64,000 nt of DNA from Candidatus Bathyarchaeia archaeon (GTDB taxonomy: Archaea > Thermoproteota > Bathyarchaeia > 40CM-2-53-6). This document shows, piece by piece, positions 11,486 to 55,490 of the stretch; the stretch's first letter is position 1, and every line of letters begins with the position of its first letter. Under the pieces are notes generated by a model. That model had not been told where the DNA came from, made no database searches, and was given only the letters and a program-made list of their open reading frames with translations. Location of the stretch: assembly GCA_035935655.1 (NCBI GenBank), contig DASYWW010000013.1, positions 62,001 through 126,000 of the forward strand, in the 5' to 3' direction. The position numbers were made by a program, and so were the translations under genes.

Positions 11486-12037
11486 TTGTCCACTCAGAGA
11501 ACGGCCCAGGAGCAAGATCCCGTTGCGACGCTCGCAGAGGGGCTCAGTATATGGGTTGGAAAACTAAGTGATCTCGTCAAGAAGGTGGTTGACACAGAGC
11601 CGATTCGAAATGTGATCAACTGGGCTCGAATGTATTCTCTCTGGCCGGTAAACATCACAACTGCTTGCTGCAGTGCCGAGTTTGGTGCGGCCAGTGGGGC
11701 GCGTCATGATCTTGAACGGTTCGGAGTCTTGCCGATTGGTTCTCTTCGGCAGTCAGACCTCATGGTGATCGAAGGGACCATTACGAAGAAGATGGCGAAA
11801 AGGCTCCGGGTGATCTACGACCAGATGGCTTTGCCTCGATACATTATTGCTATGGGGGATTGCGCTATGTCTGGCGGCCTATTCCATGATTCCTATAGCA
11901 TAGTGAATGGTGCGCACGAGTTTGTCCCGGTTGATGTCTACGTCCCGGGTTGTCCGCCGAGACCAGAAGCTTTGGAGCAGGCGATTATTATGCTTCAAGA
12001 GAAGATTCGAAGGTCAAAGGTGTACGAACAGGGATGA
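11486..12037 (+). CDS. nuoB: NuoB-like subunit (Fe-S protein of a complex I-type module)
   Basis: A 183-residue homologue of the 20-kDa PSST/NuoB/FpoB subunit that holds cluster N2. The tandem cysteines are in ITTACCSAEFGAA, a further one in AMGDCAMSGG and the last in YVPGCPPRPEAL, giving all four ligands. It takes electrons from the NuoI clusters. The start is TTG at 11486, because the next methionine falls inside the fold. It is the first gene of a tight operon with nuoC, nuoD, nuoI and an FrhB-like gene. The stop overlaps the nuoC ATG. Confidence 0.95.
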   Translation: MSTQRTAQEQDPVATLAEGLSIWVGKLSDLVKKVVDTEPIRNVINWARMYSLWPVNITTACCSAEFGAASGARHDLERFGVLPIGSLRQSDLMVIEGTITKKMAKRLRVIYDQMALPRYIIAMGDCAMSGGLFHDSYSIVNGAHEFVPVDVYVPGCPPRPEALEQAIIMLQEKIRRSKVYEQG

Positions 12038-12516
12038 GTCTCTCCCATGAAAGAGAAGATGATCTCATCCAGAAGCTGAAGGAAAACTTTTCCACCGACA
12101 TCAAGGAAACTAACATCATTCGTCGCGCTAGGCTTGAAGTGACCGTCGCACCTGAGAAGATCAGGGATGTCGCGGTGTTTCTCCGAGACAAGCTCGGCTT
12201 CGACCATCCAAACGGGGTTTCTGCTGTTGACTTCAACCGAGAAAGCAGGTTCGAGATAGTCTACCATATCTCATCAATACGCATCAAGGAAATGCGAGAT
12301 CTCGTTCTCGATTTGAAAGAGTCAGTTCCCAGAAACACCCCGAAGGTGGGATCTCTTGTCTCAGTCTGGCCTGGAGTCGAGAACTATGAACGGGAAAGCT
12401 TCGAGATGTTCGGAATAACATTTGATGGACACCCGAGATTGGAGAAACTGTTTCTAACCGACAACTGGGATGGACCACCACCTCTCAGGAAAGACATACG
12501 ATTCCCCACGGACTGA
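12034..12516 (+). CDS. nuoC: NuoC-like subunit (30-kDa family)
   Basis: A 160-residue NuoC/FpoC-type protein. The conserved C-terminal block is present: VSVWPGVENYERESFEMFGITFDGHPRLEKLFLTDNWDG in outline, with the invariant WPG, ERE and MFG/F groups and the closing PPLRKD. It is a peripheral scaffold subunit bound to NuoD and NuoB. An in-frame upstream extension to 11950 lies wholly inside nuoB, so the ATG at 12034, overlapping the nuoB stop as ATGA, is chosen. Confidence 0.93.
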   Translation: MSLSHEREDDLIQKLKENFSTDIKETNIIRRARLEVTVAPEKIRDVAVFLRDKLGFDHPNGVSAVDFNRESRFEIVYHISSIRIKEMRDLVLDLKESVPRNTPKVGSLVSVWPGVENYERESFEMFGITFDGHPRLEKLFLTDNWDGPPPLRKDIRFPTD

Positions 12517-12523
12517 AGCGACA

Positions 12524-13669
12524 ATGTCCGCACCACCTAAGCCTGTTCCCCTGACAACCGTAGAGTCAACGGAGACCTCGGACTCTGGAGCCCAAACTCT
12601 CACGCTGAGTGTCGGTCCCCAGCACTCCGGTTCAGGACACATGCGGTTAATCGTCGAGGTGGATGGGGACATCATCGTCAATGTCGCACCGGACCCGGGC
12701 TATGTTCACAGGGGAATCGAGAAGATCATTGAACTCAGGAACATCATCAAAAGCATCCCTGTTATCGAGAGACCCTCGATCATCGACGCCTCCAACCTAA
12801 ACCATGCATGGGTAAGGGCCATCGAAGAGATTCAGGGCGTCGAGGTTCCGAGAAGAGGACAGTATCTCAGAACTCTCTTGAACGAGATGAACAGGATAAT
12901 GAGCCATCTTTACTGGCTCTCTATCTACGGTGTATTCCTCGGGCACACTACTATGTTCATGTGGCCTCTCGGTGATAGAGAGTTGTTTATTGATCTCGCG
13001 GAGAAGCTTACCGGGGCTAGAATCACGTACTCCTATCTTGTTCCAGGCGGTGTGCGCCGTGACCTGCCCCCAGGGTTCGCTGAAGAAGCTGTCAAGAGAA
13101 CCGAGTACTTTGAGAAACGTCTCAAAGAATACGACCGGATATTCTTCAACAACCCGTTGTTCACGTCCCGTGCTAAGGGCGTCGGAGTACTTTCAAAGGA
13201 AAGAGCAATTGAGCTCGGATGCACTGGACCAACTCTCCGAGGCTCAGGCGTTGATGCTGACCTCCGAAAGGATGAGCCGTATGCTGCTTATCCCGAGCTA
13301 GATTTCGAAGTCTCAACACGTCCCGAGGGCGATTCCTTTAGCCGGGCAATGGTCCATATGGACGAAATGCGGGAGAGTTGTAAAATCATACGCCAGATCG
13401 TCAAGAAGATTCCTGCAGGGCCGATCAGAAGAAAGGCCCCGATAGTCCTGCCCCGTGGCGTTGCGTATGGGCGAGTCGAGTCGGCTAGGGGAGAATGCAG
13501 TTTCTATCTCATCGGGGAAGGAGGAGACAAGCCCTATCGAGCGCGATACATCACAGGATCTTATCGAAACATGGCTGCTATACCTGCAGTTCTTCTTGGA
13601 GGCCGTTTGGCGGATATGCCTACGGCTTGGTGGAGTATAGACTACTGGCCAGTTGAGGCGGACAGGTAG
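12524..13669 (+). CDS. nuoD: NuoD-like subunit (49-kDa family, non-hydrogenase)
   Basis: A 381-residue 49-kDa/FpoD-type protein. Visible landmarks are the GPQHSGSGHMRL entry, the PGYVHRGIEK loop, the RIMSHLYWL helix and GPTLRGSGVDADLRKDEPY. The two CxxC motifs that bind NiFe in hydrogenases are absent, so this is a complex I/Fpo-type subunit, where the quinone-like site forms against NuoB. The ATG at 12524, seven bases after nuoC, is preferred over an in-frame ATG at 12470 that overlaps nuoC. Confidence 0.94.
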   Translation: MSAPPKPVPLTTVESTETSDSGAQTLTLSVGPQHSGSGHMRLIVEVDGDIIVNVAPDPGYVHRGIEKIIELRNIIKSIPVIERPSIIDASNLNHAWVRAIEEIQGVEVPRRGQYLRTLLNEMNRIMSHLYWLSIYGVFLGHTTMFMWPLGDRELFIDLAEKLTGARITYSYLVPGGVRRDLPPGFAEEAVKRTEYFEKRLKEYDRIFFNNPLFTSRAKGVGVLSKERAIELGCTGPTLRGSGVDADLRKDEPYAAYPELDFEVSTRPEGDSFSRAMVHMDEMRESCKIIRQIVKKIPAGPIRRKAPIVLPRGVAYGRVESARGECSFYLIGEGGDKPYRARYITGSYRNMAAIPAVLLGGRLADMPTAWWSIDYWPVEADR

Positions 13670-13676
13670 AAGATCG

Positions 13677-15266
13677 ATGGCACCGATTATTGGTGAAGCG
13701 AAAGCAGCTGTCAATATTTTGATTGCATATTTTACAGGGATTCGCCATCTCTTCCACAGACCCTACACGCTGAGATTTCCGCAACAGAGGTACGCGGTTG
13801 AGAAAGGGTACAGGGGACGGCATCTGCTTCATCTCGATAGATGTACCGGTTGTGGGATATGCGCCTGGATCTGTCCTGAGAAATGTATCACTATCGTGCC
13901 ACGGGGTCAGAGATGGTACCCGCAATACTTCTATGGCCGCTGTTGTTTTTGCCATTTCTGTGTCGCACCTGATACACTTGTATCGACGAATCCATCGGTG
14001 TCGCCGATAAGCCAGGTACGGCCTGGCGACTGGGTCTTGACTCACACCGGGCGTTACCGCCGAGTCCGCGAGGTCCTCACCCGAAACTACTCGGGAAAGT
14101 TCTACAGCATCAAACCATTGGGAACACCTTTCCCTCTCAAGGTGACGCAGGATCATCCCCTTCTAGTGTCTTCCAGAAGCATCACCAAGAAGGGAAGACT
14201 TGAGAAGAGACCACGCGCTCCAGTTTGGAAGACACCCCTTGAACTGAAACGGGGCGACTACCTGACGATGCCGGTCGCCAAGGAGAGTCGGGATATAGAG
14301 GTTTACGAAAAGGAAGTCATACTCGGGCAACCCAGCACAGGAAAACGCCTCAAAATTAGGCTGAGCCTGAGAACGGAGCCCGATCTTTTTAGGCTGATCG
14401 GGTACTATCTTGCAGAAGGCTACGTTTCAAAGAGAACTGTCGGGTTCTCATTCGGAGAACATGAAAGAGAGTACATTGCCGACTCAGCACGACTCCTCGA
14501 GAAATATTTTGGCAAGGAAACCAAGAGATCAACCATACACAATTCGACCCACGTCCTTCTCCACTCTGTAGTCGCCCTTCAGTTCTTCGAGGGTTTTGGC
14601 CATGGCGCGGAAAACAAGAAACTTCCGGATTGGGTCATGTTTGCACCGACCGAGAAGCAGCGAGAACTCGTACGTGGTGCATGGAGAGGTGACGGCTACC
14701 TTCACAGCCCAACAGAGGGCAATCGTTCGACTTTCTTCGAGTACACAACAATCTCTAGGACACTCGCCTTCCAGCTGCAACAACTCCTCCTTAGGATCGG
14801 TATCGTTGGCCAGATCGCACTTGCCAACCATGCTAATAAGAGACCAAACTACGTGGTGACCGTTAGAGGCCGTTTCGTTCCAGCAATGGCGGACCTAATG
14901 GAGATAACATTTGAGGACAAAAGGGTCAAGACGTTTTCCCGTTTCGAAATCGACACAGATTTTGTCTACGCACCGATCGAGAAAATATCCTCAGTTGAAG
15001 TTCGTGATGAACCCGTTGTGAATCTGTCGGTTGAAGGAGACGAGTCTTATGTGGCGGGAAACGTAACAGCCCACAATTGTACGGATTATTGTCCAGAGTT
15101 TGCATTAGAGGAGACGGTTGAGTATGATATTGCTGAGTATACCCGGGATCGGCTTGTATGGAGTCCTGAGAGACTAGCCAAGCAGCCGGTAAAGAAAGCT
15201 GACAAATACGTTTTCAGCGTTGACACCGTCGGAGGCGCGTCGCAGGTGCCTGTGGAGAAGGATTAG
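13677..15266 (+). CDS. nuoI: NuoI-like 2x[4Fe-4S] subunit interrupted by an intein
   Basis: The 529-residue precursor gives a host protein of about 156 residues after splicing, the usual NuoI length. The first cluster motif is CTGCGICAWICP. The second is split by the intein: CCFCHF ends the N-extein and CTDYCP begins the C-extein. The joined motif reads C-x2-C-x2-C-x3-CP, and the residue after the intein is its third Cys ligand. NuoI passes electrons from the input module to NuoB. The ATG at 13677 follows the nuoD stop by seven bases; the TTG at 13653 is an alternative. Confidence 0.95.
   Translation: MAPIIGEAKAAVNILIAYFTGIRHLFHRPYTLRFPQQRYAVEKGYRGRHLLHLDRCTGCGICAWICPEKCITIVPRGQRWYPQYFYGRCCFCHFCVAPDTLVSTNPSVSPISQVRPGDWVLTHTGRYRRVREVLTRNYSGKFYSIKPLGTPFPLKVTQDHPLLVSSRSITKKGRLEKRPRAPVWKTPLELKRGDYLTMPVAKESRDIEVYEKEVILGQPSTGKRLKIRLSLRTEPDLFRLIGYYLAEGYVSKRTVGFSFGEHEREYIADSARLLEKYFGKETKRSTIHNSTHVLLHSVVALQFFEGFGHGAENKKLPDWVMFAPTEKQRELVRGAWRGDGYLHSPTEGNRSTFFEYTTISRTLAFQLQQLLLRIGIVGQIALANHANKRPNYVVTVRGRFVPAMADLMEITFEDKRVKTFSRFEIDTDFVYAPIEKISSVEVRDEPVVNLSVEGDESYVAGNVTAHNCTDYCPEFALEETVEYDIAEYTRDRLVWSPERLAKQPVKKADKYVFSVDTVGGASQVPVEKD
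13959..15077 (+). other. intein in NuoI (373 residues, with LAGLIDADG homing endonuclease)
   Basis: The intein begins with Cys (CVAPDTLV, block A). Block B is VTQDHPLLV with the expected Thr and His. Two LAGLIDADG helices are seen in RLIGYYLAEGY and VRGAWRGDGY with acidic residues intact. It ends with VTAHN before Cys+1. All splicing and nuclease residues look functional. Its endonuclease part resembles the second intein of CDC48 in this window (shared GYYLAEG, FG-HER-YI-D and RGDG segments). Confidence 0.95.
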
Positions 15267-15269
15267 ACA

Positions 15270-16514
15270 TTGTCAGGACAAACTGCCCCGAAAACTGCGA
15301 CGCCATTACTGGCTCCACAGACTACGCCGTTAAAATCCACCGTTGAGGGTGAGGGCTGGAAGGCACGGCCGATCAAGCTCAAGATTTTCGGCAATCTCAT
15401 CCAGGAGGTTGTGAACAAGAACCTCTGCATGTACTGTGGCGCTTGCATCGCTTCCTGTCCGATCGACATTCTCTTTCACAGCGAAAAAGAAGAGCCAGTT
15501 ATGCGAGGCACCTGTGCTGCCTGCCAAGTCTGCTACTACAGCTGCCCGAGGGTCGAGTTGCCCCTAGCGGAGATCGAGCAACAGGTCTTCGGACGATCGA
15601 GAAATGCTGAAGAGGCGATTCTCGGAATCCACGTTGGATCATACTCGGTCAAATCGAAAGACCCCGATGTTGTCAAGCGCGCCCAGGACGGTGGTGCCGT
15701 AACCTCGCTTCTCCTATACGCGCTTGATCGGAAGATAATCGACTATGCCGTCAACTCCGGCCTCACCTCAGGAAAGCCTTGGCGGCCAGAGCCACAGATC
15801 GCGCGCACAAAGGAGGATTTGTTGAACCACGCTGGTTCCAGATACACTCCAGGAGGCCAGGTAGGGGGGCTGGCAGAGGTGGCGATTCCCAACCGGTCGA
15901 TTGTCAACTTCCAGGAGGAACGTATCGCTCTCGTCGGCTTGCCGTGCGAACTTCAGGGAAATTGGCGCATGGGCACTCACTGGATAGCAGCACCGAAACT
16001 TGTGAGAAATCTTGTTTTCACGATCGGTCTCTTTTGCTCTAAGGTGTTTGATTATCAGAAGATGATGGTCGACTATGTCCAGGGCAAGCGAGGAATAGAC
16101 CTCAACAACGTTACGAAAGTCAACATCAAACGGAACAGGTTGCTAGTGTACACCGGCGACAAGCTAGCCATCGACGAACCAGTTGAGGCTGTCGCCGCCG
16201 CAGCGCGGGAAGAATGCAACGTCTGTGTTGACTACTCTGCTGAGCTGGCTGACATTGCAGTGGGTGCGATAGGGTCCGCGCCTGGGTGGAGCACCGTGAT
16301 TACTAGAAGCCCGAGGGGAGATGAGATACTGAGAGGCGCGGTTGAAGCAGGGTACCTGGACATGAAACCACTCGATCCGATTGGGAAAGGGATAAAGTTC
16401 CTCGAGAAACTATGCGAGAAGAAACGGTTGAGGGACCCGTCTGCATATCTGCGTCACGAAACCGCTTTCCCCAAGCCAGAACCAACCTTGACGCCGCTGG
16501 AGATTCCCCACTAG
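15270..16514 (+). CDS. FrhB/FpoF-like F420-linked iron-sulfur flavoprotein subunit
   Basis: A 414-residue protein of the coenzyme F420 hydrogenase/dehydrogenase beta family. Two ferredoxin motifs come first (CMYCGACIASCP and CAACQVCYYSCP, about residues 53-92). They are followed by the FrhB N domain (AQDGGAVTSLLLYAL, SRYTPGGQ, ALVGLPCELQG) and the C domain (GLFCSKVF, ECNVCVDYSAELADI). Homologues bind FAD and exchange electrons with F420. Placed last in the nuoBCDI operon, four bases after nuoI, it is the likely electron-input subunit. The start at TTG 15270 is the first available after the nuoI stop. Confidence 0.92.
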   Translation: MSGQTAPKTATPLLAPQTTPLKSTVEGEGWKARPIKLKIFGNLIQEVVNKNLCMYCGACIASCPIDILFHSEKEEPVMRGTCAACQVCYYSCPRVELPLAEIEQQVFGRSRNAEEAILGIHVGSYSVKSKDPDVVKRAQDGGAVTSLLLYALDRKIIDYAVNSGLTSGKPWRPEPQIARTKEDLLNHAGSRYTPGGQVGGLAEVAIPNRSIVNFQEERIALVGLPCELQGNWRMGTHWIAAPKLVRNLVFTIGLFCSKVFDYQKMMVDYVQGKRGIDLNNVTKVNIKRNRLLVYTGDKLAIDEPVEAVAAAAREECNVCVDYSAELADIAVGAIGSAPGWSTVITRSPRGDEILRGAVEAGYLDMKPLDPIGKGIKFLEKLCEKKRLRDPSAYLRHETAFPKPEPTLTPLEIPH

Positions 16515-25377: not shown

Positions 25378-27042
25378 ATGATGGTACTGTTAGAAATCGA
25401 ACTACCGGCGGAACTACAGCCGCCACAGAAGCAAATAGGACAATTCATTCGCCGAACCCAGAGCATCTGCCCAGAATGCAACCGCATTCTCCCAAGCACC
25501 GTCTTCGAGCGGGAAGGCAAGGTCTTCATGACCAAGACCTGCCCAGAACACGGTGAGACAGAAGAGCTCTACTTCGGCTCATACGACATGTATCAGAAAT
25601 TCGCGACCTACTGGTCTGACGGCAAGGGAACTCACGCACCGAACGTCCCGATCGAGAGTTGCGCATGCCCTGCAAACTGTGGCTTGTGCTCCAACCACCT
25701 CAGCCACACAGGCCTCGCGAACATCATCGTCACCAACCGCTGCGATTTGACATGCTGGTACTGCTTCTTCTACGTCAAGAAAGGACTCGAAGGAGCCTAC
25801 GTCTACGAGCCCAGTATCGACCAGGTCAGGGAAATGGTCCGAGCCCTCAAAGCCGAGAGGCCAGTACCAGGAAACTCGCTCCAGATCACCGGTGGAGAGC
25901 CGACCCTACGACCGGAGCTTCCGGAGATCGTCAAGATCATCAAAGAGGAAGGAGTAGACCACATCCAGCTCAACACCAACGGCATCAACCTCGCACTCAA
26001 CCCCAACCTAGCCCACATACTACGCGATAACGGTCTCAGTAACCTCTACATGAGCTTCGACGGAGTCAGCCCCAAGACCAACCCCAAGAACCACTGGGAA
26101 GCACCATACACAATAGAGAGCTGCCGAAAGGCCAACCTCGGCGTCGTACTCGTCCCGACAGTCATCAAGTCGATTAACGATCACGAGCTAGGCGGAATAC
26201 TCCGATTCGCCCAAAGAAACATCGACATCGTCCGAGCGATCAGCTACCAGCCAGTCTCCCTCACAGGACGAATGAAGAAGCAAGAGAGAGAGAAATACCG
26301 AATCACAATACCAGACTGCATCGAGAGAATCGAGGAGCAGACCAACGGAGAAATTCCAAGAGACGCATGGTTCCCAGTCCCAAGTTGCTCACCAGTAACA
26401 CACTTCGTAGAAGCCTTCACCAAGAGACCTCAATACGAGCTATCGATACACTTCGCGTGCGGCGCCGGAACATACGTGTTCGAGGACAAAGACACCAAGA
26501 AGATGGTCCCCATCACATCGTTCGTGGACCTCAAAGGACTGTTCGAGTACCTAGACGAGAAGACTGACGAGCTCAACTCAGGCACCAACAAGTATCTAGT
26601 AGCCGCGAAATTCATCACCAAACTCAACAGCTTCATCGAGAAAGACAAGCAACCAGCAGGACTTAACCTGAGCAAGTTGCTCGTTGGAGCCTTGCTCAAA
26701 CACGACTACAGCTCAGTGGGACAGTTCCATGTCCGGAGCATGTTCCTGGGCATGATGCACTTCCAAGACAAGTACAACCAAGACGAGGAACGACTACAAC
26801 GCTGCGACATACACTACCTTACACCGGACATGAGGATCATTCCGTTCTGCAGCTTCAACGTCATCCCCGAATGGTACCGTGACAGGATTCAGAAGAAGTA
26901 CGGTGTCAGCGTAGAGGAGTGGGAGAAGAAGACTGGCGAGAAGCTCGAATCACGCCTCTACCGTGGACAGCTACGACGCGGAAAGCACGCCGACGGCTGC
27001 GGCTGCAGCGCAGTACACATCGAACCGATAACCGGCACCTAG
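25378..27042 (+). CDS. tes: tetraether lipid synthase-like radical SAM enzyme
   Basis: A 554-residue radical SAM protein of the Tes (MJ0619) type, which joins two diether phytanyl chains into GDGT membrane lipids. The SAM cluster motif is CDLTCWYC, followed by ITGGEPTLRPEL. The N-terminal CPECN...TCPEHG zinc-like module and CACPANCGLC segment precede it. A cysteine cluster at the C-terminus (GCGCS) and CDIHYLTPD are as in family members. The ATG at 25378 begins MMVLLEIELP; a longer start at 25315 overlaps the promoter region. Synonymous codons are markedly C-ending compared with neighbours, perhaps reflecting high expression. Confidence 0.88.
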   Translation: MMVLLEIELPAELQPPQKQIGQFIRRTQSICPECNRILPSTVFEREGKVFMTKTCPEHGETEELYFGSYDMYQKFATYWSDGKGTHAPNVPIESCACPANCGLCSNHLSHTGLANIIVTNRCDLTCWYCFFYVKKGLEGAYVYEPSIDQVREMVRALKAERPVPGNSLQITGGEPTLRPELPEIVKIIKEEGVDHIQLNTNGINLALNPNLAHILRDNGLSNLYMSFDGVSPKTNPKNHWEAPYTIESCRKANLGVVLVPTVIKSINDHELGGILRFAQRNIDIVRAISYQPVSLTGRMKKQEREKYRITIPDCIERIEEQTNGEIPRDAWFPVPSCSPVTHFVEAFTKRPQYELSIHFACGAGTYVFEDKDTKKMVPITSFVDLKGLFEYLDEKTDELNSGTNKYLVAAKFITKLNSFIEKDKQPAGLNLSKLLVGALLKHDYSSVGQFHVRSMFLGMMHFQDKYNQDEERLQRCDIHYLTPDMRIIPFCSFNVIPEWYRDRIQKKYGVSVEEWEKKTGEKLESRLYRGQLRRGKHADGCGCSAVHIEPITGT

Positions 27043-50828: not shown

Positions 50829-53800
50829 CTAGCTTGCCGGTGCTGGTATCTGCTGAAGCCCTGGCTTCGAATCAGCAAACTGCTGTGAGAAGCGCTCGTA
50901 CATCCTAAGCTCTTGGCTAGAAATCGGCTTGACCTTCTGCATGGCCTCGTCAAAATGACGCTTAACCACCTTCAAGCCCTTGGCTCGCTTCTTCGCATCC
51001 TCCGGATCCTTCGCCTTTCCAATATGATCCTTGATTGACAACATCACAGCGGTGTTGCAGATCGATGCGATATCTGCTCCTGTGTAGCCTTGCGTCTTTC
51101 TAGCTAGTTCGTCGAGTTTCACATCGTCCGCCAACGGCGTTTTCTTGGTATGGATGCGAAAGATCTGCTTCCTCGCCTCCAAATCCGGCGGAGGGACCAG
51201 CAGCATCCTGTCAAATCTCCCGGGTCTGAGCAGCGCTGGGTCGACAATATCGGGTCTATTCGTTGCCGCGATAATGACGACGTTTCTCAGCTCTTCGAGT
51301 CCATCCATCTCGGTCAGAAACTGGCTGATCACCCTCTCTGTCACGTTAGAGTCGTTCGAGCCGCTTCCGCGAACGGGCGCTACCGAATCAATTTCGTCAA
51401 AGAATATGATGCAGGGCGATGCTTGTCGAGCTTTGCGAAAGATCTCTCTAACGGCCTTCTCGGACTCTCCTACGAACTTGTTAAGCAATTCCGGACCCTT
51501 GACGCTGATGAAGTTGGCTTCGCTCTCGTTCGCAGCCGCCTTGGCTAGAAGCGTCTTACCGGTTCCGGGAGGACCGTAAAGGAGGAGTCCCTTCGGGGGA
51601 ACAGCGTTCATCTGGGCGAAGAGTTCAGGATATTTGAGTGGCCACTCGATCGCCTCTCGAAGTTCCTCCTTCACTCCCTCCAGCCCGCCGATATCGTCCC
51701 ATTTGATATCTGGGACCTCCACCAGAACTTCTCGCATCGCGGAAGGTTCCACCTCCTTGAGGGCTTCTTGGAAGTCGCTCATTCGCACGATGATCTTGTT
51801 GAGGACCTCAGCCGGAATGTTCTCCGCTTCCAAGTTGATCTCAGGCAGAATCCTGCGCAGAGCTCTGATAGCCGCCTCCTTCGCAAGAGCCTCTAGGTCG
51901 GCGCCCACAAACCCGTGGGTGACATCAGCTAGCTTCTTCAGATCCACATCCTCGGCCAAAGGCATCCCTCTGGTGTGAATCTGCATGATTTCCAACCGGC
52001 CATCGCGGTCGGGGACCCCAATCTCGATTTCCCGGTCGAACCTTCCCGGCCGGCGCAGCGCTGGGTCGATCGAGTTGATCCGGTTTGTATTGTGAAGCAG
52101 TACGGGATTCTCGCCGCCAAAGAAAGCCTCGCCTTCGGCACCGCAAATATCATAGACATACCCGTCGTAGGGTAATTTCTTGACAGACCTTACGGTCGGT
52201 CTTTTCTGGGCTAGTGATTTCTTTACAGGTTGATTGTTGAAGGGATTGTTTGTCTTGCCGAATCCTAGCCTAAAAGCGGTCGTCTCTTTGGTTACAAGGG
52301 TGTCTCTGATCATCCGGCCCGCGGGAACCTTGTAGGACCCGAGATAAGTCTTGATCCCATGCATCCGACATAGCCAGTTCAAATCGAGAATCAAATTCTT
52401 GCTAACGGCGGTGATTACCAGTTTGCCGTCCTTCGGACCATTGTGACCATCCCCTCGCGCCTCGCCTTCTAGAAATTCCATGAAGAAATCTGTGGGAACT
52501 GTAAACATGAAAGATGGCAGGCGTTTTTCGTACGCGTTGTGTCCAAAGAGGTTGCCGAACAGGTCCTTTACTGGTTGGCATGAGTAGTAAATCGAATGCG
52601 CGTTGGAGTGTTTCCTCTCGGTGGACGGCGACATGTCGAAAGCCTTCAGCATCAACAATTTGACATCCTCGATGTACGTCCTCTCGTGGCTGCCGAAAGT
52701 GAAAGTAAGCCCGCTCCTCGAAGCTGAACCTTCGGCGAGATAATATCCAAAGAGTCTGCTCAACTCGGGAGAGAGCGCCACTATTCGAGGTATCCCTGCA
52801 AGGGCCCATCTTACAGGATGCGGGACCACATCATTGTGTCGCCAGAGTTGTACAGTGCTTGGGTGGACGCCTGCTTGAAGTGCAATAAGGTGTGACTGGC
52901 CTCGTGGTCCTGGGGTATCCTGAAGGAACGTGGCTTGATTGTATGCCTGTATAGTCTTGTTGTCATATAGTTGGAAGTAGACGGGCTCGTAAGGCTCGAA
53001 TGCATGAGCTCTAGTCTCGCGAGTGTTTTGTTTTAGCCTCAATTTGAAAGGTAGGTCCACAAGGTTCTCGCCAATCTTTAGCTGGTCTACTCTCTTTGCT
53101 TCTATTCCCTTTCGAGTTCTGACAAACACAGAATGACTGCCCGTGGCCCGAATCCTGCCTCCAAGATATTCGATCTCGAAGAGCTCGTGCACCTTATGTC
53201 TGAAGACAGATTTGAAAGCCTGGAATCTACTGCCCCCGAAGAAAGTGTATTTCCGAAATCGTGGGTTTGTTGATCTCATTGGCTGAAGGCCGAGAACACG
53301 GTAACCCTCCACGTTCGGTTCAGAGCCTTCCTCTCCACATGGGAAGAAGGAGTCGACAAAGGTCCCTATCGGTGTCAGCTTGATCTTGTTCTCTCTGTCC
53401 TTAACCATGATCGGGGTGTCACCAGTCACACTCGCGCCAATGACTACGACCTTTCCTCGGGACTGCAGCCCGTCCATCACTGAGAGTAGCTGAGAGACGA
53501 CGCGTTTCTCAACTTCTCCCGTGACCTCCTCGCGTTTCGGCGCGATCGAATCTATCTCGTCAATGAAGATGATGGATGGCGCGTTCTCCTGGGCCTCCTT
53601 AAAGATCTCACGAAGCCTCTCCTCGCTCTCACCATAGAACTTGCTCATTATCTCGGGCCCGCCGATACTGTAGAAGTTCGCGTTCGTCTCGCTCGCCACC
53701 GCCTTCGCGAGCAACGTCTTACCGGTATTGTGGCTCAGTAGGCCGTTCGCGAAGAAGGAGTGGGTACTCGGAACTTCAAAGTCGTATACTCTTTGCCATC

Positions 53801-55490
53801 CTTCGAGCTTCCTTACTGTTTTGATCTTCTCGAAGTCGTCATTAAGATAGGCGAGGTTACGCCTGTAGCCCCTGACTATGGCTTCCAGACGCGCTCCCTT
53901 CCGGATAGAGATGAAGCCTATCTGTTCCTTGAACTTGTTTACTACGTCCTTACCACGGATCGCTAACACGTAAAATGTTGAGTCTCTTCCTCCTCTGGTG
54001 GTATAGGGGCCTCCGTGAATCCTTGATGTAATTCCAAACCTCAGAAGGAGTGTCTGCACTTCCTCCAACAATTTCCGGTGCTTGCTTTTGAGGAAGATAC
54101 CGCGGTAATTGTCGGCTTTTCTTGCGTAGCCATCTCCTTCGAAAGCGCCTCGAAGGAATGCTGCCACAACTGTGTTCGGTGACATGAGTATCGGTGTTGG
54201 TACTCTCTTCTCTATACGAGACCAGTATTTACCGAAGAATTCAGCGAGTCCTCTGTTGTCGAATCGCAGCACATTGCATTGTTTGCCTGATTTTGGAACC
54301 ATGTATCCTTCAACACCGAAAATCTCCATCCCTTTCCTTATTGCAGTAGCAAGTTCCTCTTCATGACTCTCGATAGTGAAGAATACTCTGTCCTTGCCAG
54401 CAGTCCCCTCTGCAATGAATATGCCAAAGAGTTCTCCCAATCGCTCGTCCCAAAACCTAGGCATGAGCGGTTTGGTCCATAATCTTACCATGTTGATTGT
54501 ATCGCTGACAATAACGTATTGTGTAGGCGAAGGAATCCACTTGATCGTCTTCACTCGATCCTGGGGTTTGAGTTTCTCCGCCTCTGTCCACCCATGCTCA
54601 GTCATGAGAGGATGGTTCAGTGTGGTCCGGAGCCTTTTTCCGGTCTCGGTGATTATCTCCATCGTTTCAGGTACATCATAGATGTGAAGGGCTTTCGCAC
54701 TGCCCGGAGGGTAGATAGGAAGGTCTGCGATGTAGACGCCAGGAAGCACTCCTTTTGCGAGTTCTTCTATCCGAATTAATCCACCGTTTTCAAGGGCGAT
54801 CAACGAATCGCCAACAACGCAACCTGGGGGTCCGTGGAGAAGGACTCCTTTCGGAGCTTCGACTCCGAGTCGTTCGAACAGTTCTGGATGTCTCAAGGGA
54901 AGCTCGATCATCTCCCGGACCTTCTGGATCACAGGCCGAAGTCCTCCGATGTCCTCGTACGCGATCCTTGGAATCGCCCTAGGCGCTTCCTTCACCTGTT
55001 CCCCAACAGTAACTTCTGTCTGGTCCGTGACGATGACTGCTTCTGCGGTCGGGGTGGTGCTAGTGACTACAAGGTCGATTTTGCGACCCATGACGTTTAT
55101 CGGGACATAGTCTCCCCGTGCTAAGACTCGGCCTTCCAGGATCTGGCTGAGATATTCTTCTCCCCCGACAATCCGGAGTGGTTCGGTTGGTGCGAGGGTG
55201 ATACGTTGGGCGATCTTTGCTGTTATCTTCCTGATCGTGACCTTGTCGTCTATTGAAACGCCAGCGTTATTCCTAAGATAACCATCTATGCGGATTGTTC
55301 CCTTGCCCGAATCTGACTCGTATCCAGGCCAGGAGAGAGCGGTTGTCTTCTTCTTCCCAATGATCTGGATCACATCGCCGGAGGTTAGACCAAGCTCATC
55401 CACAACTTTTGGGTCAACTCGCGCAATGCCTCGGCCTACATCTCTCTGATACGCGTCAGCGACTCTAAGAGTAAGGGTCTTCTCTGGCAA
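50829..55490 (-). CDS. cdc48: CDC48/VCP-like AAA+ ATPase with two inteins
   Basis: The 1553-residue precursor gives about 740 residues after removal of two inteins, the usual size. The N domain (double-psi barrel, residues 1-180) is followed by two AAA modules. D1 Walker A is GPPG plus TGKT, interrupted by intein 1 between them; D1 Walker B is [14 protein letters not shown]. Intein 2 sits in the GA-TNR sensor-1 region of D1. D2 has an intact [28 protein letters not shown] and [21 protein letters not shown]48 unfolds proteins and feeds the proteasome. The C-terminus (QQIPAPAS) is short. Confidence 0.97.
52089..53432 (-). other. intein 2 of CDC48 (448 residues)
   Basis: It begins with Ser ([10 protein letters not shown]) after GA and ends PVLLHN before Thr of TNR. 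Block B is [19 protein letters not shown] helices are seen at [11 protein letters not shown] and EGEARGDGH. The endonuclease region resembles that of the NuoI intein. It is inserted in the sensor-1 Asn loop (GATN), so an unspliced protein would lack D1 activity. Confidence 0.94.
53727..54821 (-). other. intein 1 of CDC48 (365 residues)
   Basis: It begins with Cys ([13 protein letters not shown]) after GPPG and ends [10 protein letters not shown] before Thr of TGKT, splitting the D1 P-loop. Block B is [19 protein letters not shown] helices: [11 protein letters not shown] and [10 protein letters not shown]. Splicing residues are all present. Confidence 0.95.

Follow-up and report, generated by a model that had tools for sequence, protein, structure and literature searches.

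The closest described counterpart of the locus reported here is the MoaA intein of Pyrococcus abyssi (Callahan et al. 2011), for which reviews (PMC10663303, PMC3922620) describe a disulfide trap between Cys-3 and Cys1. The two cases are alike in that the host is an O2-sensitive Fe-S protein and that Cys-3 and Cys1 are both present at the junction (CHF/C in NuoI; junctions are marked here by a slash). However, the MoaA intein lies in another host from another archaeal group and its redox control was measured, whereas the NuoI site is known from sequence. In the Pab PolII intein, a disulfide forms between Cys1 and Cys+1 (PMC3922620); both residues are also found in NuoI and would be able to pair, although the PolII junction is no Fe-S ligand site. 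Mycobacterium SufB inteins are reported to show splicing that is sensitive to oxidative and nitrosative stress (PMC8891592, PMC6195587) and reside in a host acting in Fe-S cluster assembly, but the intein and the insertion sites are different. A further parallel is the intein-containing tetraether lipid synthase (Tes), as the Tes model NF045703, judged against the intein-free Tes of the window, breaks at DLTCWY/CFF, where the third cysteine of the radical-SAM motif CxxxCxxC follows; here, the host differs and the endonuclease parts are only distantly similar. Our literature search on tetraether lipid synthase found nothing. An intein-free Tes homologue is encoded in the window at 25438-26934 (+). 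The nearest solved structure by sequence is PI-PkoII (PDB 2cw7; E 2e-11, low identity), likewise a LAGLIDADG intein endonuclease, the host of which we take to be a DNA polymerase. Native inteins in general could be wholly selfish or could act as sensors of the environment.

The window, namely the whole 64,000-nucleotide stretch of Bathyarchaeia DNA that was analyzed, has the gene order nuoB-C-D-I-frhB/fpoF, as in F420H2-type complexes, with the NuoI gene interrupted by an intein (Table 1). The open frame at 13653-15266 (+) codes for 537 aa, and the ATG directly after the end of nuoD is likely to be the start codon. The spliced host contains two CxxCxxCxxxCP motifs and its gene adjoins nuoB/C/D. 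NuoI/FpoI models match the extein residues up to ...GRCCFCHF and again from CTDYCPEFALEE onward, and removal of the intein raises the TIGR01971 score from 76.8 bits for the precursor to 94.1 bits, with the match then reaching the end of the model. It should be considered that, even though NuoI models are the best families for the spliced protein, this score lies below the TIGR01971 cutoff of 113.05, and the host is therefore named NuoI/FpoI-like. Across the 2.5 Mb of the genome (G000), no second NuoI copy was found at the threshold used.

Table 1 Features of the intein-interrupted NuoI/FpoI-like gene and of its neighbors in the window.
Feature	Position	Strand	Remarks
nuoB, without intein here	11486..12037	+	TTACCSAEFG
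nuoC/fpoC, open frame	11950..12516	+	
nuoD/fpoD	12470..13669	+	
NuoI/FpoI-like gene, intein-interrupted	13677..15266	+	Precursor 529 aa from ATG 13677; open frame begins 13653
N-extein	13677..13958	+	Ends ...GRC-CF-C-HF
First 4Fe-4S motif, CTGCGICAWICP	13842..13877	+	Pfam Fer4
Second 4Fe-4S motif, first half (CCFCHF)	13941..13958	+	Cys at -6 and Cys-3, the first two (presumed) ligand cysteines
Intein, LAGLIDADG type	13959..15077	+	373 aa, C1 to N373
Block B, TQDHP (TxxH motif)	14145..14159	+	T63, H66 invariant
First LAGLIDADG motif, around LFRLIGYYLAEG	14385..14420	+	E153 invariant
Second LAGLIDADG motif, around GAWRGDGY	14664..14699	+	D245; N in G015 allele
Blocks F and G, VVNLSVEGDESYVAGNVTAHN	15015..15077	+	His-Asn at end
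C-extein	15078..15263	+	Begins C(+1)TDYCP, the remainder of the second 4Fe-4S motif
FrhB/FpoF-like F420-dependent subunit, open frame	15270..16514	+	From TTG 15270

By its motifs and its precise insertion, the element can be assigned to the class 1 LAGLIDADG inteins. Splicing blocks A, B, F and G are all present; C1, T63, H66, E153 and N373 are invariant among 12 aligned inteins, H372 is found in all NuoI inteins and D245 is kept in all aligned inteins but one. PF14528 (LAGLIDADG_3) matches at 55.8 bits (cutoff 22.5), and Pfam Hint_2 and Intein_splicing (PF14890) match below their gathering cutoffs. The precursor is predicted to be self-splicing and the intein to be a putatively active endonuclease, with the reservation that block F carries Asn (VVNL) in place of the usual Asp, so that the first splicing step might be slowed. 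AlphaFold2 applied to the full precursor with a six-row alignment reached a mean pLDDT of 33, such that the model gave no distances and no fold search.

The junction is defined by alleles that lack the insert. In five species of the same genus, the uninterrupted gene contains RCCFCHFCTDYCPEFAL, the intein-free alleles of G005, G008, G010, G011 and G017 reading RCCFCHFCTDYCPEFALEE, and the site is also empty in the sister genus (G018). The intein interrupts NuoI between C-CF-C-HF and C-TDY-CP, with C1 encoded by TGT at 13959, the final intein codon being AAT (15075-15077) and Cys+1 being TGT at 15078. From the five empty congeneric alleles, the junction is therefore placed directly upstream of the third motif II cysteine, which bears out the preliminary description on this point. 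The same description had given Cys+1 a double role as splicing nucleophile and cluster ligand, and this is supported as well, with the ligand role taken from knowledge of the NuoI family. Indeed, that Cys+1 would ligate a cluster is suggested by alignment to solved NuoI chains, and PROSITE-type four-cysteine patterns support the motif cysteines as cluster ligands (PMC9783039). As the ten full-length allelic inteins are all 373 aa long, chance and assembly error are excluded and the NuoI intein is confirmed as real.

In 2[4Fe-4S] ferredoxin-type folds, the last of the four cysteines in a motif binds the cluster of the other motif. Because the ligands are interleaved in this manner, loss of CTDYCP takes one ligand from each cluster. 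The unspliced precursor still reads CxxCxxC, with the intein Cys1 in third place, where it could stand in for the absent third ligand. The earlier expectation that no second cluster is taken up before splicing is, then, not a strict consequence of the arrangement, as both clusters are affected and Cys1 stands in the sequence where the third ligand would be. The retained CxxCxxC could also mean that a metal or partial cluster on Cys-6, Cys-3 and Cys1 blocks the nucleophile, such that metal or cluster supply would gate splicing. We consider such gating improbable, as the precursor has its fourth motif II ligand cysteine moved out of place and as the inhibition of inteins by metals is, in most cases, an effect on Cys1 in general.

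Within the genus, the insert is present in 13 of 18 genomes and absent from 5, where it should be noted that three of the 13 inserts are cut by contig ends and one is frame-shifted. In the G006 allele (L035), a 55-nt deletion breaks the intein frame, and another NuoI copy was not found in that MAG. On the host tree, presence and absence require at least five changes over 16 alleles. Synonymous divergence (NG86 dS) also disagrees between intein and host, being 0.149 for the intein versus 1.07 for the host between G002 and G015, 0.011 versus 0.152 between G009 and G001 and, in the opposite direction, 0.908 versus 0.244 between G016 and G013. The inteins therefore move independently of the host, and this combination of patchy occurrence and host-incongruent dS is what a homing, mobile intein would leave behind. 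The broken frame in G006 and the decay of the endonuclease motif in some alleles (D to N in G015) could instead point to a decayed, non-splicing insertion, i.e., a pseudogene, or to an artefact of MAG assembly. However, with one length and an open frame in ten species, and with dN well under dS in the splicing part and in the endonuclease part alike, we give this hardly any credence.

We believe that the element is probably a homing class 1 LAGLIDADG intein with obligatory splicing, inserted where the Cys-rich codons of NuoI/FpoI motif II provide a highly conserved target. Homing would copy the intein into intein-free NuoI alleles. In the translated precursor, splicing would be carried out first by Cys1 and then by Cys+1, which would later serve as a cluster ligand, and would restore the regular CxxCxxCxxxCP motif. 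Were the precursor not spliced, the only NuoI copy would be unable to complete its clusters. Such a position would be favored as its codons are near-invariant, as a Cys+1 nucleophile is on offer and as imprecise loss would destroy function.

We searched 398 genomes of the phylum with a profile of NuoI and OFOR beta inteins, and two other classes with an enlarged intein profile. The same NuoI site (NuoI-a) is occupied in G340, G534, G717, G719 and G705; in all, it is occupied in at least three Thermoproteota classes, two of them other than that of the window. The site had been described as not commonly cited; this holds insofar as we found no published report of it in the open-access literature searched, but has to be set against its occupation in 13 of 18 congeners and at least three classes. 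A second NuoI site (NuoI-b; YGR/C...HN/CVFCGL), before the first cysteine of motif II, is occupied in G385, G704, G706, G746 and G651. Both sites, six residues apart, are occupied together in G719 and G705, where the double-intein precursors (L330 and L340) have inteins flanking CVFCGL, one G705 copy being a 172-aa mini-intein. In NuoB, inteins are found between the tandem cysteines (NuoB-a; HLETAC/C...HN/CSVEVGA; G674, G717, G746 and G719) and before the next ligand (NuoB-b; WVIAMGA/C...HN/CSITGG; G719). The G719 NuoB (L339) has two inteins, with the copy before the next ligand being a 203-aa mini-intein.

Other Fe-S proteins present the same picture. The nearest other-site intein in the genus of the window is that of OFOR beta (L080, L081; DWCPG/C...N/CGDFG), the host of which shows homology to chain B of PDB 5b46. 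Like the NuoI intein, it precedes a cluster cysteine (CPG/C, in the CPGC motif), although the two are 32% identical and the OFOR intein belongs to a separate clade with the IscU inteins. Further inteins were found in IscU/NifU (GNPV/C...HN/CGDLMW; G379 and G274), in the second ferredoxin motif of ABCE1 (CIGCGI/C...HN/CVKKCPF; six genomes), in a B12-binding radical SAM protein (CPFCCDF/C...HN/CWRP) and, before the third cysteine, in AmrS-like radical SAM proteins. The ABCE1/Rli1 inteins of one genus (L210, L213-L215, L218, L220 and L222) lie at the third cysteine of that second motif. As related inserts in other archaea precede cluster cysteines in six other proteins, protein splicing appears to be needed for their maturation. 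Host names, as well as the ligand roles of the host cysteines, are presumed here from sequence motifs and family knowledge, OFOR being the only host compared with solved structures. With this in mind, the NuoI finding widens into what reads as a recurrent class of Fe-S-ligand intein sites, of which we know no published account, the literature covered being incomplete. Since the sites came from profiles built on Fe-S sites, no enrichment p-value is given. Among the sites listed from the same profile search of viral contigs, where host gene content differs, no Fe-S ligand motif was apparent.

A single dedicated Fe-S intein lineage was considered and is not borne out by the intein tree. NuoI-a, NuoI-b and ABCE1 inteins come together with moderate support (82/90; 98/96 in an earlier, smaller tree) and OFOR and IscU inteins group at 98/95, but the NuoB-a, NuoB-b and most AmrS-like inteins branch elsewhere. 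Being scattered in this way, the Fe-S-site inteins must be taken as several lineages that converge on such sites. In addition, inteins of non-Fe-S hosts (MetK, Nfo, Hel308 and others) are interspersed among them, and one should therefore speak of recurrence rather than of one pure Fe-S clade. The groupings are consistent with hopping between sites that have short Cys motifs in common.

The same collection of sites bears on the question of redox control. Under oxidation, Cys1 could form a disulfide with Cys-3 or Cys+1 and leave the precursor unspliced until reduction releases it, such that the O2-sensitive subunit would mature only in reducing conditions. Cys-3 is indeed present in all NuoI-a, OFOR, ABCE1 and radical-SAM cases read. 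Moreover, C1 is the sole cysteine of the window intein, so that it could pair only with extein cysteines; of the nine other NuoI-a inteins that are full-length in this family of genomes, six likewise lack any further cysteine and three have one. The MoaA (Cys-3/Cys1) and Pab PolII (Cys1/Cys+1) pairs provide published precedents (PMC10663303, PMC3922620). Nonetheless, it is the cluster motif that requires Cys-3, the conservation of which is thus uninformative about a switch; related inteins at NuoI-b (YGR/C), IscU (PV/C) and NuoB-b (MGA/C) lack Cys-3, with only Cys+1 being a ligand there; and empty NuoI alleles are common in the same genus. We thus find a redox trap unlikely as the explanation of this insertion. 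As either a redox or a metal trap could add to a homing element, the two were rated separately, and redox or metal control of NuoI splicing would be possible and chemically reasonable, Cys-3 and Cys+1 both being presumed ligands. Dependence of splicing on redox state, or its independence, is in either case something that we infer.

The sites that lack Cys-3 suggest that what the sites have in common is a conserved target that offers a usable Cys+1, rather than selection for a switch. Conserved codons, the Cys+1 nucleophile and intolerance of imprecise loss are accordingly the best-supported reason for the position, and a redox switch is an optional by-product of it. The persistence of inteins at ligand cysteines in several unrelated lineages could also reflect a benefit to the host. 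A stronger proposal would be that Thermoproteota inteins are specialised in Fe-S ligand codons and move between unrelated Fe-S proteins, with splicing serving the anaerobic electron-transfer system as a check that conditions are reducing or that iron is available; we regard this as doubtful. In any case, a redox-cofactor ligand doubling as a splicing nucleophile in several unrelated Fe-S proteins goes beyond the MoaA precedent. Complex I of the Thermoproteota has matched sites that either contain or lack Cys-3, as well as precursors with two inteins and empty congeneric alleles, so that the selfish and the sensor views can be tested there side by side.

Several further inteins were seen. A ribonucleotide-reductase-like protein of G016 (L190) has an intein at CSA/C...HN/CFINSVQDD, with the Cys-3/Cys+1 arrangement again. 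SufB-like inteins occur at AQYE/C...HN/SEVVYH (L221, G370) and NIG/C...HN/SKVTMKYPS (L227, G355). In viral contigs (L257, L268, L282, L296 and others), many inteins lie at SMG/C...HN/C, followed by a C-x(6)-C-x(2)-C stretch that may be a metal site of a phage protein. Finally, a CDC48-like AAA ATPase in the window (50829-55490, minus strand; open frame of ~1550 aa) contains two inteins, of which the first occupies the P-loop and the other a second AAA site.
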